From Neobacillus sp. FSL H8-0543 (GTDB taxonomy: Bacteria; Bacillota; Bacilli; Bacillales; Cytobacillaceae), in the NCBI RefSeq assembly GCF_038592905.1, contig NZ_CP151943.1:1800501-1864500 (forward strand): DNA of 64,000 bases. Direction: 5' to 3'. The position numbers and the translations under genes are program-made. Shown in pieces: positions 233 to 7,149 of the stretch. Numbering within the stretch: the first letter of the stretch is position 1; each line of letters begins with the position of its first letter. Under the pieces are notes generated by a model that searched no databases, was not told the DNA's origin, and was given only the letters and a program-made list of their open reading frames with translations.

Positions 233-311
233 CATTTTTTCTATTGCTACTATTTTTATATTCTGATAATATAAAATAGCGTTATTATTGGAAAGCATGT
301 ATTCTATAATC

Positions 312-512
312 CAGAGTCTTTGACCACTTCCATAATGAAGTTAAGGCAAAGGTACGCCGGTCAAATGCCGAATGGCAACTTTAGTTGCCTTATTGATTGA
401 GTTAAAAGCTCAAATTTTATAAGTTGGTTACTTTACAACCAGTGCAATGCACACAACTTGTGAAACGGTCAATAAGAGTAGTAAAAGTAAATTATTTGCT
501 ATATAGACTCTG
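312..512 (+). ncRNA. Candidate structured leader RNA (riboswitch-like), class unknown
   Basis: This 201-nt segment closes on itself: CAGAGTCT (312-319) is perfectly complementary to AGACTCTG (505-512). Inside are TTGACC (320-325) with GGTCAA (359-364, or the second copy at 467-472), ACTTC/GAAGT (326-330/337-341), GGCAAC/GTTGCC (374-379/384-389), TTGAG/CTCAA (397-401/409-413), and a nested arm AAGTT/AACTT (421-425/455-459) holding GTGC/GCAC (442-445/449-452). It therefore folds as a closed multi-stem junction typical of aptamers. Bases 448-457 can instead pair with 645-654, the 5' arm of the downstream terminator. Possible promoters are TTATTA-17-TATAAT (282-310) and TTGCTA-17-TAATAT (244-272). 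I recognise none of the common signature motifs (T-box, S-box, lysine, cobalamin, M-box). Confidence 0.5.
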
Positions 513-637
513 ATCTTTTGATGATATTAAATGAATATTATAGAGCTTCCTTACATAAGTCCCTAGGACCTTTTGGTAGTAGTATACATATTTTTTTTGG
601 TATACTTACGCTTTTTTAATATTGATAAAGATATCTA

Positions 638-681
638 AGCAAGTGTTGTGCGCAATTATGCGCTTTGCACTTGCTTTTTTT
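638..681 (+). terminator. Terminator/attenuator hairpin ahead of the carboxyspermidine operon
   Basis: AAGCAAGTG (638-646) pairs with CACTTGCTT (668-676), with an inner TGCGCA/TGCGC stem, and a T-run follows to about 680. It lies only about 40 bases before the first gene and downstream of the structured leader, with no gene between. That is the placement of a transcription attenuator rather than of an ordinary gene-end terminator. Confidence 0.65.
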
Positions 682-717: not shown

Positions 718-1953
718 ATGGGAAAAGCACTTATTATTGGCTGCGGCGGGGTGGCTTCCGTAGCCATACAGAAATGTGTTCAAAACAGTGAGGTATTTGA
801 AGAGATTTGTATCGCAAGTCGTACAAAGTCAAAATGTGATGACTTAAAAGCAAAACTAGACGGCGGCAAAACGAAAATTACAACGGCACAAGTGGATGCA
901 AACAATGTTGATGAACTAATTGCTTTAATTGAAGAGGTAAAACCGGATATTGTGATGAACTTAGCTCTTCCATATCAAGATTTAACCATTATGGATGCAT
1001 GCCTGGCAACAAAAACAAACTATATGGATACTGCAAACTATGAGCCGGAAGAGACGGCAAAATTTGAATATAAATGGCAATGGGACTACCGCGAGCGCTT
1101 CGAAAAGGCTGGAATTACAGCACTTTTAGGTAGCGGCTTTGACCCGGGTGTAACTGGGGTATTCTCTGCCTATGCATTGAAACATTATTTTGATGAAATT
1201 GAATATATCGATATTCTTGACTGTAATGGCGGAGATCATGGTTATCCATTTGCAACCAACTTCAACCCTGAAATCAATATCCGTGAAGTTTCTGCAAACG
1301 GAAGGTATTGGGAAAACGGCGAATGGATCGAGACGGAGCCAATGGAAATCAAACGCGTTTACAACTTCGCGGAAGTTGGCGAGAAAGATATGTATTTGCT
1401 CTATCACGAAGAGCTTGAATCTCTTGCTCAAAACATCCCAGGGATTAAGCGTATCCGTTTCTTCATGACCTTTGGCCAAAGCTATATTACTCACTTAAAG
1501 GCCCTTGAAAATGTAGGAATGACTAGCATCGAGCCAATTGAATTCGAAGGAAAACAGATTATCCCGCTTCAGTTCTTGAAAGCTGTATTACCAGATCCAG
1601 CATCACTTGGACCAAGGACAGTCGGAAAAACAAACATCGGCTGTATCTTCCAAGGAAAAAAGGATGGAAAGCCGAAAACTTATTATGTCTACAATATTTG
1701 TGACCATCAGGAATGCTATAAAGAAGTCGGTTCACAAGCCATTTCTTATACAACAGGTGTTCCTGCGATGATCGGTGCCATGATGGTGATGACCGGAAAA
1801 TGGAATAAACCGGGTGTATACAATATTGAGGAATTTAATCCGGATCCGTTTATGGAAGAATTGAATAAATGGGGACTTCCATGGGTTGAAGACTTTAATC
1901 CTGTACTTGTTGATGAGCCAGTTAAAGAAAAAGAGTTGGAGCTCGTTCGATAA
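718..1953 (+). CDS. Carboxynorspermidine/carboxyspermidine dehydrogenase (saccharopine dehydrogenase family)
   Basis: This 411-residue protein has an N-terminal Rossmann motif (LIIGCGGVAS, residues 5-14) and the saccharopine-dehydrogenase fold. In the known pathway this enzyme reductively condenses aspartate beta-semialdehyde with putrescine (or diaminopropane) to carboxyspermidine (or carboxynorspermidine) using NADPH, in the cytoplasm. Motifs such as LLGSGFDPGVTGVF near residue 140 fit this branch rather than lysine-pathway LYS9. GGAG precedes the ATG by 12 bases. The next gene starts one base after its stop and encodes the matching decarboxylase, so the two form an operon. The structured leader and attenuator upstream suggest control at transcription elongation. 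Whether the product is spermidine, norspermidine or homospermidine cannot be read from sequence. Confidence 0.88.
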   Translation: MGKALIIGCGGVASVAIQKCVQNSEVFEEICIASRTKSKCDDLKAKLDGGKTKITTAQVDANNVDELIALIEEVKPDIVMNLALPYQDLTIMDACLATKTNYMDTANYEPEETAKFEYKWQWDYRERFEKAGITALLGSGFDPGVTGVFSAYALKHYFDEIEYIDILDCNGGDHGYPFATNFNPEINIREVSANGRYWENGEWIETEPMEIKRVYNFAEVGEKDMYLLYHEELESLAQNIPGIKRIRFFMTFGQSYITHLKALENVGMTSIEPIEFEGKQIIPLQFLKAVLPDPASLGPRTVGKTNIGCIFQGKKDGKPKTYYVYNICDHQECYKEVGSQAISYTTGVPAMIGAMMVMTGKWNKPGVYNIEEFNPDPFMEELNKWGLPWVEDFNPVLVDEPVKEKELELVR

Positions 1954-1954
1954 G

Positions 1955-3082
1955 ATGAAGTTCGAAGAATTACCAACACCATGTTATGTAGTCGATGAAG
2001 AGTTAATTGAGAAAAATCTTAAAATCCTAAACGGCGTCATGAAGCGGACAGGAGCTAAGATTGTTTTGGCACAAAAGGCTTTTTCGATGACAACAATGTA
2101 CCCCCTCATTGGAGAATATTTAAGTGGAACAACAGCAAGCGGCTTATACGAGGCGCGTCTTGGTTACGAGGAAATGGGCAAAGAGAATCATGTCTTTGCC
2201 CCTGCCTATCGTGAAGAGGAAATCGACGAAATTATCTCTATTTGCGATCATATCATCTTTAATTCCTTCTCACAGCTAGAAAAATTTAAGGATAAAGCAT
2301 TAAAAGCTGGCAGGAAAGTGGGCTTGCGTATTAATCCTGAATGCTCCACACAAGTCGGCCATGCTATTTATGACCCCTGTTCACCCGGATCTAGGTTTGG
2401 TGTAACAAAAGAGCATTTTCGTCCCGATATGCTTGTTGGCGTTTCAGGGCTGCATTTTCATACACTTTGCCAGCAAAACTCTGATGACCTAGAGACAACT
2501 CTTAATGCAGTTGAAGAAAAGTTCGGGCCATGGCTATCACAAATGGAGTGGATCAACTTTGGCGGCGGTCATCATATCACACAAGAAGATTATGATATCC
2601 CGCGGCTAGAAAACTGTATTAAGAAAATGCAGGATAAATACGGTTTAGAAGTATATCTTGAGCCGGGAGAAGCCATTGCCCTCAATGCAGGTTATTTGGT
2701 TACTTCTGTCCTTGATCTCCATCAAAACGGTATGGAGATTGCGATTCTTGACACTTCAGCCACCTGTCATATGCCGGACGTATTAGAAATGCCTTATCGT
2801 CCGCCTCTTTTTGGATCTGGAGAAGCAGGTGAGAAGCCATTTAGCTATCGGCTTGGCGGGCAAACCTGCCTGGCAGGCGATGTCATCGGAGATTATTCTT
2901 TTGATCAGCCCCTAAAGAGCGGTGATCGATTAGTTTTTGGTGACATGGCGATTTATACGATGGTCAAAAACACCACTTTTAACGGCATGCCTTTACCGGC
3001 AATCGTTGTTCAAGACAAAGATGGAGATTGTCATATTGTGCACCAATTTAGCTACCAGGATTTTAAAATGAGACTAGCTTAA
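1955..3082 (+). CDS. nspC: Carboxynorspermidine/carboxyspermidine decarboxylase
   Basis: This is a 375-residue PLP-dependent decarboxylase of the alanine-racemase-fold (fold III) group. The N-terminal LPTPCYVVDE and the AQKAFSM segment, which carries the PLP lysine, are typical of NspC. Later the protein has GLHFHTLCQQN, the glycine loop NFGGGHH, and LEPGEAI. It removes CO2 from the carboxypolyamine made by the preceding enzyme, giving spermidine or norspermidine. A longer frame is open from 1886, but the ATG at 1955 gives the family-standard N-terminus and sits one base after the upstream stop, which implies translational coupling. A terminator follows at 3121. This S-adenosylmethionine-independent route is an alternative to SpeD/SpeE; no speD or speE is visible here. 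Confidence 0.9.
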   Translation: MKFEELPTPCYVVDEELIEKNLKILNGVMKRTGAKIVLAQKAFSMTTMYPLIGEYLSGTTASGLYEARLGYEEMGKENHVFAPAYREEEIDEIISICDHIIFNSFSQLEKFKDKALKAGRKVGLRINPECSTQVGHAIYDPCSPGSRFGVTKEHFRPDMLVGVSGLHFHTLCQQNSDDLETTLNAVEEKFGPWLSQMEWINFGGGHHITQEDYDIPRLENCIKKMQDKYGLEVYLEPGEAIALNAGYLVTSVLDLHQNGMEIAILDTSATCHMPDVLEMPYRPPLFGSGEAGEKPFSYRLGGQTCLAGDVIGDYSFDQPLKSGDRLVFGDMAIYTMVKNTTFNGMPLPAIVVQDKDGDCHIVHQFSYQDFKMRLA

Positions 3083-5580: not shown

Positions 5581-6156
5581 ATGGCACCGAAACAAAAGTT
5601 TACTAAACAGGAGATTATTATCGCAGCATTTGATCTTGCTAAAGATAAAGGATTAGATTCCATCACAATTAGAAACGTAGCTCAAAAGCTAGGAAGCTCC
5701 ATAGCACCCATTTACGTAAATTTTAACAATATCGATGAACTGATACAGGAAGTAGTAAAAAAAGCATTTGAGGTTTCAAGACAGATGCTAATGGAGCAGA
5801 AATCAGGTCATCCATTCCGAGATATCGGAATTGCTAGTCTTAGATTTGCGAAAGAATATAGTGTACTTTATAGAGATTTGATAATCAAAAATAACCCTCA
5901 TATGAAATACGAAAACGAAAACATTTACATTGTTATTGAACAAATGAAAAAGGATCCAATGTTGTCTCATTTTTCTGATGAAGAATTGAAGACGATTTTA
6001 TTCAAAATGCAAACGTTCCAAACTGGTCTTTCTGTTATGGTAGCAAATAAATTACTTCCAGAGGATTGTGATGAAAAGTTGATTGAGATTTTGGACAGCA
6101 CAGCAGCGGATATTATCGCTGCTGCTCATTTAAGAAATAACGGGTCGTTAGCGTGA
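5581..6156 (+). CDS. TetR/AcrR-family transcriptional regulator
   Basis: This 191-residue protein has an N-terminal TetR helix-turn-helix: FTKQEIIIAAFDLA starts helix 1 and ITIRNVAQKLGSS is the recognition region (residues 7-45). An alpha-helical ligand domain follows. The frame is open from 5461, but the ATG at 5581 starts the typical N-terminus and has AAAGGAG at spacing 8. The short-chain dehydrogenase starts 24 bases after its stop and is probably co-transcribed, so the regulator likely represses its own operon in response to that enzyme's substrate. The substrate is unknown. Confidence 0.85.
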   Translation: MAPKQKFTKQEIIIAAFDLAKDKGLDSITIRNVAQKLGSSIAPIYVNFNNIDELIQEVVKKAFEVSRQMLMEQKSGHPFRDIGIASLRFAKEYSVLYRDLIIKNNPHMKYENENIYIVIEQMKKDPMLSHFSDEELKTILFKMQTFQTGLSVMVANKLLPEDCDEKLIEILDSTAADIIAAAHLRNNGSLA

Positions 6157-6180
6157 TAATCATAAAGGAGGTAGGATTTT

Positions 6181-7149
6181 ATGCAAAACAGAAATGTTAT
6201 TATTACGGGTGCCAATTCTGGAATAGGTAAAGCCTCAGCACTTAAATTTGCCACAGAGGGATACAACATTATTATGGCTTGTAGGGATATGGTGTTTAGT
6301 AGAAACGTCCAAAAAGAAATTATCGATATCTCTAAGAATAAAAATGTCTATTTAATGCAAGTGGATATGTCTTCGTTTAATTCCATCCGTACATTTTGCT
6401 CAGAATACAAAAGTAAATTTGAAAAAGTGGATATATTAATCCATAACGCAGCTTATTTTAATCATGGTGAAAAATATCAACTTAGTCCCGATCATATTGA
6501 GCTGACTTTTGCTACGAATGTATTTGGGCCTTTTTTGATGACGACATTATTATTGGATCACCTAAAAAAATCTGATGAACCTAAAATCTTTCATGCAGGT
6601 AGTAATATCATTAAGCATTTTTTTGACTTGAAAACCAAAATAATTTTTGATAACCTACAAGGCGAATTCAAGGATAGTAGATCCCATAGTGTGTATAAAA
6701 TGTATTGCCAATCTAAAATGGCATTATTGATGCTCACATTTAAAATGGCTGAAATGTTTAAAGATGATGGGATCAAAGTAAATGCATTACAAATCAATGG
6801 TGCAAAAATGTCAAAGCGAATGATAAAAAAAGTCAAACCTTGGTGGCGACCAATCACGTGGGTGCAAAATTTATTTATTCCACCAACTTCATATATGGCC
6901 AATAACTATTTTGAAATATGCACCTCCGATACATTTCAACATGTAACCGGAAAGCTTTTCAACGATAAATTAGAAATTATGCAAGTGGCCCCTAATGAAT
7001 ATCCTGGTTTTTTCAAACAAGTAAAACGTGTCCTCGGTTCCAGTTTCTATCCCACATATGCAAATAAGAAAGACGTTATGGACCAACTATGGGAGTTAAG
7101 TATTGAGTTAACTAACGACCATTCTATCCACTCCACCTTAAAATCTTGA
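6181..7149 (+). CDS. Short-chain dehydrogenase/reductase, retinol-dehydrogenase-like
   Basis: This 322-residue NAD(P)-dependent SDR has the nucleotide-binding motif TGANSGIGKAS at residues 10-20, the structural NAA (IHNAAYF), and the catalytic YxxxK as YCQSK in KMYCQSKMALL. Its length and the segment around the active site resemble retinol dehydrogenase/WWOX-like SDRs more than fatty-acid FabG types. AAAGGAGG stands before the ATG. It pairs with the TetR regulator just upstream and ends at a strong hairpin terminator, so the two form a small self-contained stress or detoxification operon. The substrate is unknown. Confidence 0.85.
   Translation: MQNRNVIITGANSGIGKASALKFATEGYNIIMACRDMVFSRNVQKEIIDISKNKNVYLMQVDMSSFNSIRTFCSEYKSKFEKVDILIHNAAYFNHGEKYQLSPDHIELTFATNVFGPFLMTTLLLDHLKKSDEPKIFHAGSNIIKHFFDLKTKIIFDNLQGEFKDSRSHSVYKMYCQSKMALLMLTFKMAEMFKDDGIKVNALQINGAKMSKRMIKKVKPWWRPITWVQNLFIPPTSYMANNYFEICTSDTFQHVTGKLFNDKLEIMQVAPNEYPGFFKQVKRVLGSSFYPTYANKKDVMDQLWELSIELTNDHSIHSTLKS

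Follow-up and report, generated by a model that had tools for sequence, protein, structure and literature searches.

Polyamines are universal, and their binding to RNA is loose. The lysine riboswitch, a large transcription-attenuating OFF riboswitch, combines a branched aptamer, a strand common to aptamer and antiterminator, a terminator, and downstream genes for biosynthesis and import; the leader RNA described here, termed the polyamine RNA, resembles it in these respects, but no Rfam riboswitch family matches it. One experimentally supported bacterial class of spermidine riboswitch was found in a literature search, consisting of rare variants of the SAM-I riboswitch (Salvail et al. 2023, PMC10853860). 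According to the accessible text of that report, these variants lie before speE, speB, speD and ldcC and act as OFF switches for spermidine, a setting and a behaviour like those found or proposed for the polyamine RNA, and the authors expect more classes; whereas their aptamer is SAM-I-like, the polyamine RNA has another helix layout and spans ~210 nt. SAM-I itself had no match up to E 10 in the leader of the window (the whole 64,000-nt stretch of Neobacillus sp. FSL H8-0543 DNA that was analysed), nor any at gathering in 20 relatives. The odc1 and potE motifs are candidate RNA elements near polyamine genes (PMC8632094); as far as the accessible text of this source goes, they differ from the polyamine RNA in that odc1 consists of a single extended hairpin with pseudoknot, and potE precedes an antiporter gene and is without an obvious expression platform.

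A fragment of the polyamine RNA is already in print from pneumococcus, where the transcript SN20, listed with a length of 318 nt and with "yes" for both start site and terminator, maps between SP0915 and SP0916 (PMC2887815) and F59/srn235 was placed at the same site (PMC3395615); no cis function is assigned in the accessible text of either report. The corresponding Rfam family, RF02440 (SpF59_sRNA, "ldcC RNA", 54 nt), is alike in that its 54 positions match the part of the polyamine RNA formed by helices P2 to P4, but it is modelled as a 54-nt Streptococcus sRNA, with no aptamer, switch or wider range. The literature search, outside which most subscription journals and supplements lay, returned no description of a class combining this fold with these genes, and none stands in the accessible text of PMC10043782, PMC4387999, PMC2965389, PMC9397018, PMC12826042, PMC11109978, PMC6429828 or PMC9971707. 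The riboswitch-like attenuator is thus familiar by kind and the pneumococcal fragment by sequence; the fold and gene set appear to be new as a class, no description having been found.

The leader RNA of the Neobacillus locus

The preliminary description, made from the letters of the window, had placed a closed multi-stem RNA and an attenuator-like terminator before the first gene of a polyamine operon. The features of this locus are listed below in window coordinates; R1 is a covariance model built from 30 sequences (alignment A1), from which the window copy is absent, and A2 is an alignment of 72 sequences made with MAFFT.

308..513, + strand: aptamer-like core, match to the 213-position model R1 (198 bits, E 1.7e-44 genome-wide)
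312..319, + strand: 5' strand of the outer helix P0, eight perfect pairs with 505-512 (−12.8 kcal/mol; CAGAGUCU/AGACUCUG)
320..364, + strand: P2 (320-325/359-364), P3 (326-330/337-341) and P4 (345-347/356-358), overlapping the RF02440 match at 321-371
374..389, + strand: hairpin P5, GGCAAC/GUUGCC, with both-side changes in 6/6 pairs among 72 sequences
391..474, + strand: P6 (391-397/468-474), enclosing P7 to P10 according to the fold and A2; within it P7 (398-401/409-412), P8 (417-425/455-463), P9 (426-429/437-440) and P10 (442-445/449-452)
448..461, + strand: putative switching strand, made of the P10 3' arm and P8 3' strand; antiterminator half pairing with 639-654
491..499, + strand: 3' strand of P1, orphaned by deletion of its 5' partner in the window copy
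505..512, + strand: 3' strand of P0, of which 507-511 (ACUCU) alternatively pairs with 475-479 (P11, AGAGU)
638..681, + strand: intrinsic terminator (stem 638-676, U tract 675-681, −21.5 kcal/mol), its 5' arm being the other antiterminator half
718..1953, + strand: carboxy(nor)spermidine synthase, saccharopine-dehydrogenase-like, the first gene putatively controlled (NF043000 at 412.7 bits, not reaching its cut-off of 800; PF03435 and PF16653 above cut-off)
1955..3082, + strand: nspC, carboxynorspermidine decarboxylase (TIGR01047 above its cut-off at 502.4 bits, scored on the longer frame 1886-3079)

The multi-stem RNA closed by 312-319/505-512 is present as first described and far stabler than shuffled sequences, the 401-nt leader folding at −109.3 kcal/mol (z = −6.1) with 0/100 shuffles as stable, and the R1 match at 308-513 is the sole one in a search of the whole host genome. 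The closing helix had been named P1; its eight perfect pairs are there, but it is a conserved outer helix (P0) and not P1. The terminator lies near the first gene as described, ending 36 nt before the ATG at 718. Nine of ten positions pair between 448-457 and 645-654, as claimed, and the best duplex between the aptamer and terminator regions includes 448-461/639-654, with 13 pairs. In Bacillaceae leaders the span from core to terminator (for example window 523-632) holds complementary pieces, recognised by eye and reading approximately GAUAUA..AAUAUUA..AGC with GCU..UAAUAUU..UAUAUC, which point to one more long-range helix, located between aptamer and terminator.

Upstream, positions 181-220 form a very strong, near-symmetrical terminator-like hairpin of 18 pairs between the preceding gene and the leader, which probably keeps transcription from upstream out of the leader. 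Promoter-like sites with at least 9/12 sigma-70 consensus positions were seen in 93 of 138 upstream stretches from the set of loci, against 54.7 expected from shuffles, and sites with at least 11/12 in 40; where at least 10/12 was reached (62 stretches), most sites end ~25-58 nt before the core. The best site of the window scores 8/12, and no good promoter was seen upstream of its leader.

At gathering, Rfam gave no match in the 64-kb window, in keeping with the earlier remark that the RNA had been matched to no known class; that remark needs amending in so far as RF02440 matches 321-371 with 34.9 bits (E 1.2e-4), just missing its cut-off of 37.2. It was the only notable one among six matches in a loose search of positions 200-730, the others having E values of 4-9. 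Across 20 related loci RF02440 was the only Rfam family matching the element at gathering, above its cut-off in 17 and below it in L096, L112 and L129; among 14 control genomes it was found in Lactococcus lactis only. A known family at an unrelated position had been held to speak against a new polyamine attenuator. The sole telling match, RF02440, instead precedes SP0916 in pneumococcus, which we take to be a decarboxylase gene, and its consensus leads us to expect a full-length element in streptococci.

The relatives carry an extra helix, P1, inside P0, with strands AGCAGAUAAU/AUUAUUUGCU. Compared with, for example, L049, the window lacks ~16 nt between GAGUCUUU and GACC, by which the 5' strand of P1 is gone; the P1 duplex reaches −0.9 kcal/mol in the window and at least −5.3 in each of the remaining 70 sequences, so that among the 71 compared the loss is confined to the window copy. 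No repeats were found around window positions 270-330. By its sequence, the window copy belongs to the family but has suffered damage to its inner closing helix; P0 closes the RNA instead, and the copy may be weakened, constitutive or less responsive than the copies of its relatives. Its R1 score, the lowest of 59 copies (198 bits; next 220), and the restriction of the P1 loss to this one copy make it conceivable that it is broken altogether, the deletion having rendered it insensitive to ligand, but this is rather doubtful given that P0 is whole at eight pairs and the antiterminator/terminator pair is whole as well.

Distribution and gene association

The RNA occurs in many families across Bacillota. 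A blastn search with 312-520 detected one copy each in 59 of 150 related genomes, the same 59 that were found with R1, many of the sequences refound having trained this model. Across the phylum, 19 of 398 genomes were matched by RF02440, including one false positive, and 24 of 398 by R1, including the window's own genome and six new ones. The RF02440 match at L069 (E 0.008) was rejected: it lies inside a coding frame that by eye resembles biotin carboxylase, in a genome without an R1 match. A pattern scan of named genomes yielded at least 119 stretches, giving at least 80 loci, and R1 matched 87/87 sources tested, 80 of them chosen by the pattern; named hosts include Faecalibacterium, Paenibacillus, Acetobacterium and Neobacillus. 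A tandem riboswitch considered for L157, where R1 matches twice, was discarded because the sequence is one RNA with a long insert; this copy (5837-6189) carries the insert in its P8-P10 region and lies before a potA gene. In L051 the strand opposite to the polyamine RNA carries a c-di-GMP-I riboswitch (2514-2605) about 1 kb away.

Family profiles bore out the proposal that the operon downstream is devoted to polyamines, with the synthase at 718-1953 followed by nspC at 1955-3082, the start of which was taken as the ATG at 1955, 1 nt beyond the synthase stop codon. The association holds well beyond the window: in all 145 distinct loci, the window included, the next gene after the RNA is one of polyamine synthesis or import, at a distance of 80-470 nt (median 204). 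The synthase comes first in 62 loci, the AdoMet decarboxylase gene speD in 44, an Orn/Lys/Arg-type decarboxylase in 25 and the spermidine/putrescine importer gene potA in 14, as labelled by tblastn with one query per gene type, family scans confirming the identities in examples. The 80 pattern-scan loci, 78 of which have downstream DNA, were chosen by the RNA pattern alone, with their genes unseen. The count of 145 leaves out L122 and L125 (71 and 0 nt downstream), L068 to L087 (loci already present, or L069) and six duplicates among 151 rows, and it includes seven loci whose core is cut by the locus end (L094, L113, L117, L130, L133, L140 and L165). One operon has, in this order, speD (TIGR03331), an Orn/Lys/Arg decarboxylase gene (PF01276), speE, speB, the synthase gene and nspC; here the synthase scores below the curated cut-off and the decarboxylase has no NCBIfam match at 1e-20. 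At one potA locus, a potB-like permease gene comes next.

Among the 150 related genomes, RNA and synthase occur together in 59, the synthase alone in 4, the RNA alone in none and neither in 87 (p=2e-37). Against the association stand G061, G073, G085 and G103, which have a synthase (75-83% identity) without the RNA; G018 and G089 carry a second synthase copy, yet a single RNA match per genome. In G096 and G112 the RNA lies kilobases away from the synthase gene, and a speD-like frame, judged by eye, follows the leader of G096 (L035). Six loci (L009 and L013 to L017) have ~80-90 nt more than the window between terminator and synthase gene; this extra DNA, in which hairpin-like inverted repeats are visible by eye, may stem from small mobile elements or form a second hairpin.

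Taken at its Rfam name, SpF59 sRNA, the RNA would act in trans and stand beside polyamine genes by chance, and short pneumococcal transcripts were detected according to the accessible text of PMC2887815 and PMC3395615. A terminated leader would, however, give a short transcript too, and the position and orientation of the RNA are fixed before polyamine genes at 145/145 loci, by which this reading is rejected as very improbable.

Covariation and mutually exclusive pairing

The preliminary description had looked to homologous leaders and to covariation in its stems for confirmation; leaders were found in many families, and most of the stems covary. In A1, both-side changes affect 21/63 pairs (68 cells against 19.8 shuffled), and in A2 they affect 28/63 pairs (260 cells against 67.8 shuffled, a value reached in 0/500 shuffles), with 93.7% of A2 cells able to pair and 34-43% when the partner is slid. 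Within A2, all pairs of P3 and P5 covary, as do all five pairs counted in P10, though the latter form in just 65-82% of cells. Variation in P6 and P11 is slight or absent, and in P8, the putative switching helix, one pair of nine shows both-side changes, so that the alignment says little or nothing for or against these three helices. For P1, native duplexes gave −8.64 against −6.14 for permuted ones, 0/5000 permutations being as good (71 of the 72 sequences, L032 left out; relatedness ignored). The corresponding values for P0 were −8.71 and −7.90 (0/2000; 136 other loci; relatedness ignored), the signal being weaker within L002-L050 alone, where 49/2000 permutations were as good. P11 (AGAGU/ACUCU) is invariant in 72/72 sequences (A2 columns 349-353/382-386; window 475-479/507-511) and would either form a pseudoknot with P1 or be a competitor of P0; the 3' strand may choose between the closing helix (P0/P1) and this invariant local hairpin, which would amount to a built-in pseudoknot or switch.

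An intrinsic terminator was recognised by a fixed rule at 135/145 loci (10/145 failing), compared with 17/145 for reverse complements and 21/145 for shuffles. The best partner of the terminator 5' arm within the core, taken as a 28-nt stretch, includes the P8 3' strand at 104 of 126 loci (of the 145) against ~14% expected. Native duplexes between aptamer and terminator gave −13.92 and permuted ones −12.70, with 0/5000 as good (119 unique pairs from 132 usable of 151; relatedness ignored). These results agree with the proposal that terminator and antiterminator exclude each other. For the pairing of 448-457 with 645-654, the predicted coevolution is seen over the whole set and outside the Bacillaceae-type set (0/5000; 76 pairs), but only weakly among Bacillaceae-type loci (189/5000 as good; 43 pairs); among potA loci the signal is weak as well (87/5000; 10 pairs). 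In L118 and L132 the aptamer reads CUGUG instead of CUUGUG and the terminator foot CAG instead of CAAG, matched changes that are suggestive of co-change between aptamer and terminator; the duplexes of these two loci are middling, 39 and 40 of 119 partners being better.

Attenuators governed by a protein, a tRNA or a leader peptide, with no direct sensing of a metabolite, do exist, and such control is an alternative to the putative direct binding by the polyamine leader. No T-box match was obtained in the window at gathering or in the leader up to E 10, and the only match to a protein-binding leader, L20_leader, is at chance level (13.8 bits against a cut-off of 58.7, E 6.7). A leader peptide could draw on possible TTG and GTG starts of short frames conserved in invariant segments; among start triplets kept in 80% of the 72 rows there are five TTG columns and one GTG column and no ATG column, but the frames they would open are short, and most are not constant in length, while just 2, 1 and 0 of 130 cores have frames that stay open from end to end. 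The leader-peptide reading keeps some probability but is not favoured, and the size of the RNA (~200 nt) and its long joining segments, invariant across many families, are typical of large aptamers and make the whole group of such attenuators improbable.

A candidate riboswitch for polyamine supply

A conserved structured aptamer in the 5' leader and a mutually exclusive expression platform, two marks of a riboswitch beside the predicted direct, selective and protein-free binding of a metabolite, both emerge from sequence comparison, and the comparative tests that were run favour the attenuator riboswitch of the preliminary description. The leader is probably an OFF riboswitch that senses a metabolite and controls polyamine supply by attenuating transcription, with spermidine as the most likely metabolite; small-molecule binding, the identity of the ligand and the OFF direction are what we infer here from the fold, the pairing and the genes. 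With ligand bound, the branched aptamer (P0/P1 to P10) would keep the P8 3' strand and P10 in their own helices, leaving the terminator 5' arm free, so that the terminator would form and transcription would stop before the polyamine gene. If no ligand is bound, the terminator 5' arm would be taken up in pairing with the P8/P10 strand, allowing transcription to continue. The OFF direction fits the control of biosynthesis and import genes.

The element is found with genes for two routes of spermidine synthesis as well as with an importer, the shared theme being spermidine supply, and spermidine is the best single guess since it is common to speD, the carboxyspermidine enzymes and the importer. 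The same attenuator could respond to another polyamine or precursor, namely putrescine, agmatine, cadaverine, norspermidine or carboxyspermidine. The Orn/Lys/Arg-type decarboxylase that comes first in 25/145 loci (PF01276 in the example) yields a diamine or agmatine and not spermidine, and PotABCD-type systems import putrescine too; these decarboxylase contexts keep precursors among the possible ligands. Pathway knowledge points the other way, speD providing the aminopropyl step and synthase and nspC the carboxy route, with spermidine as their sole common end product, and a signal other than spermidine is accordingly rated unlikely.

It is on balance likely that the polyamine RNA, a candidate spermidine riboswitch, constitutes a second natural class of this kind, with a fold unrelated to that of the SAM-I-derived one, old, widespread in Bacillota and controlling both synthesis routes as well as import. 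In contrast to the rare SAM-I variants, it is common, being present in 24 of 398 genomes across the phylum. It would give the pneumococcal "sRNA" a new meaning as a segment of a riboswitch leader, and it makes direct tests of the candidate riboswitch possible.
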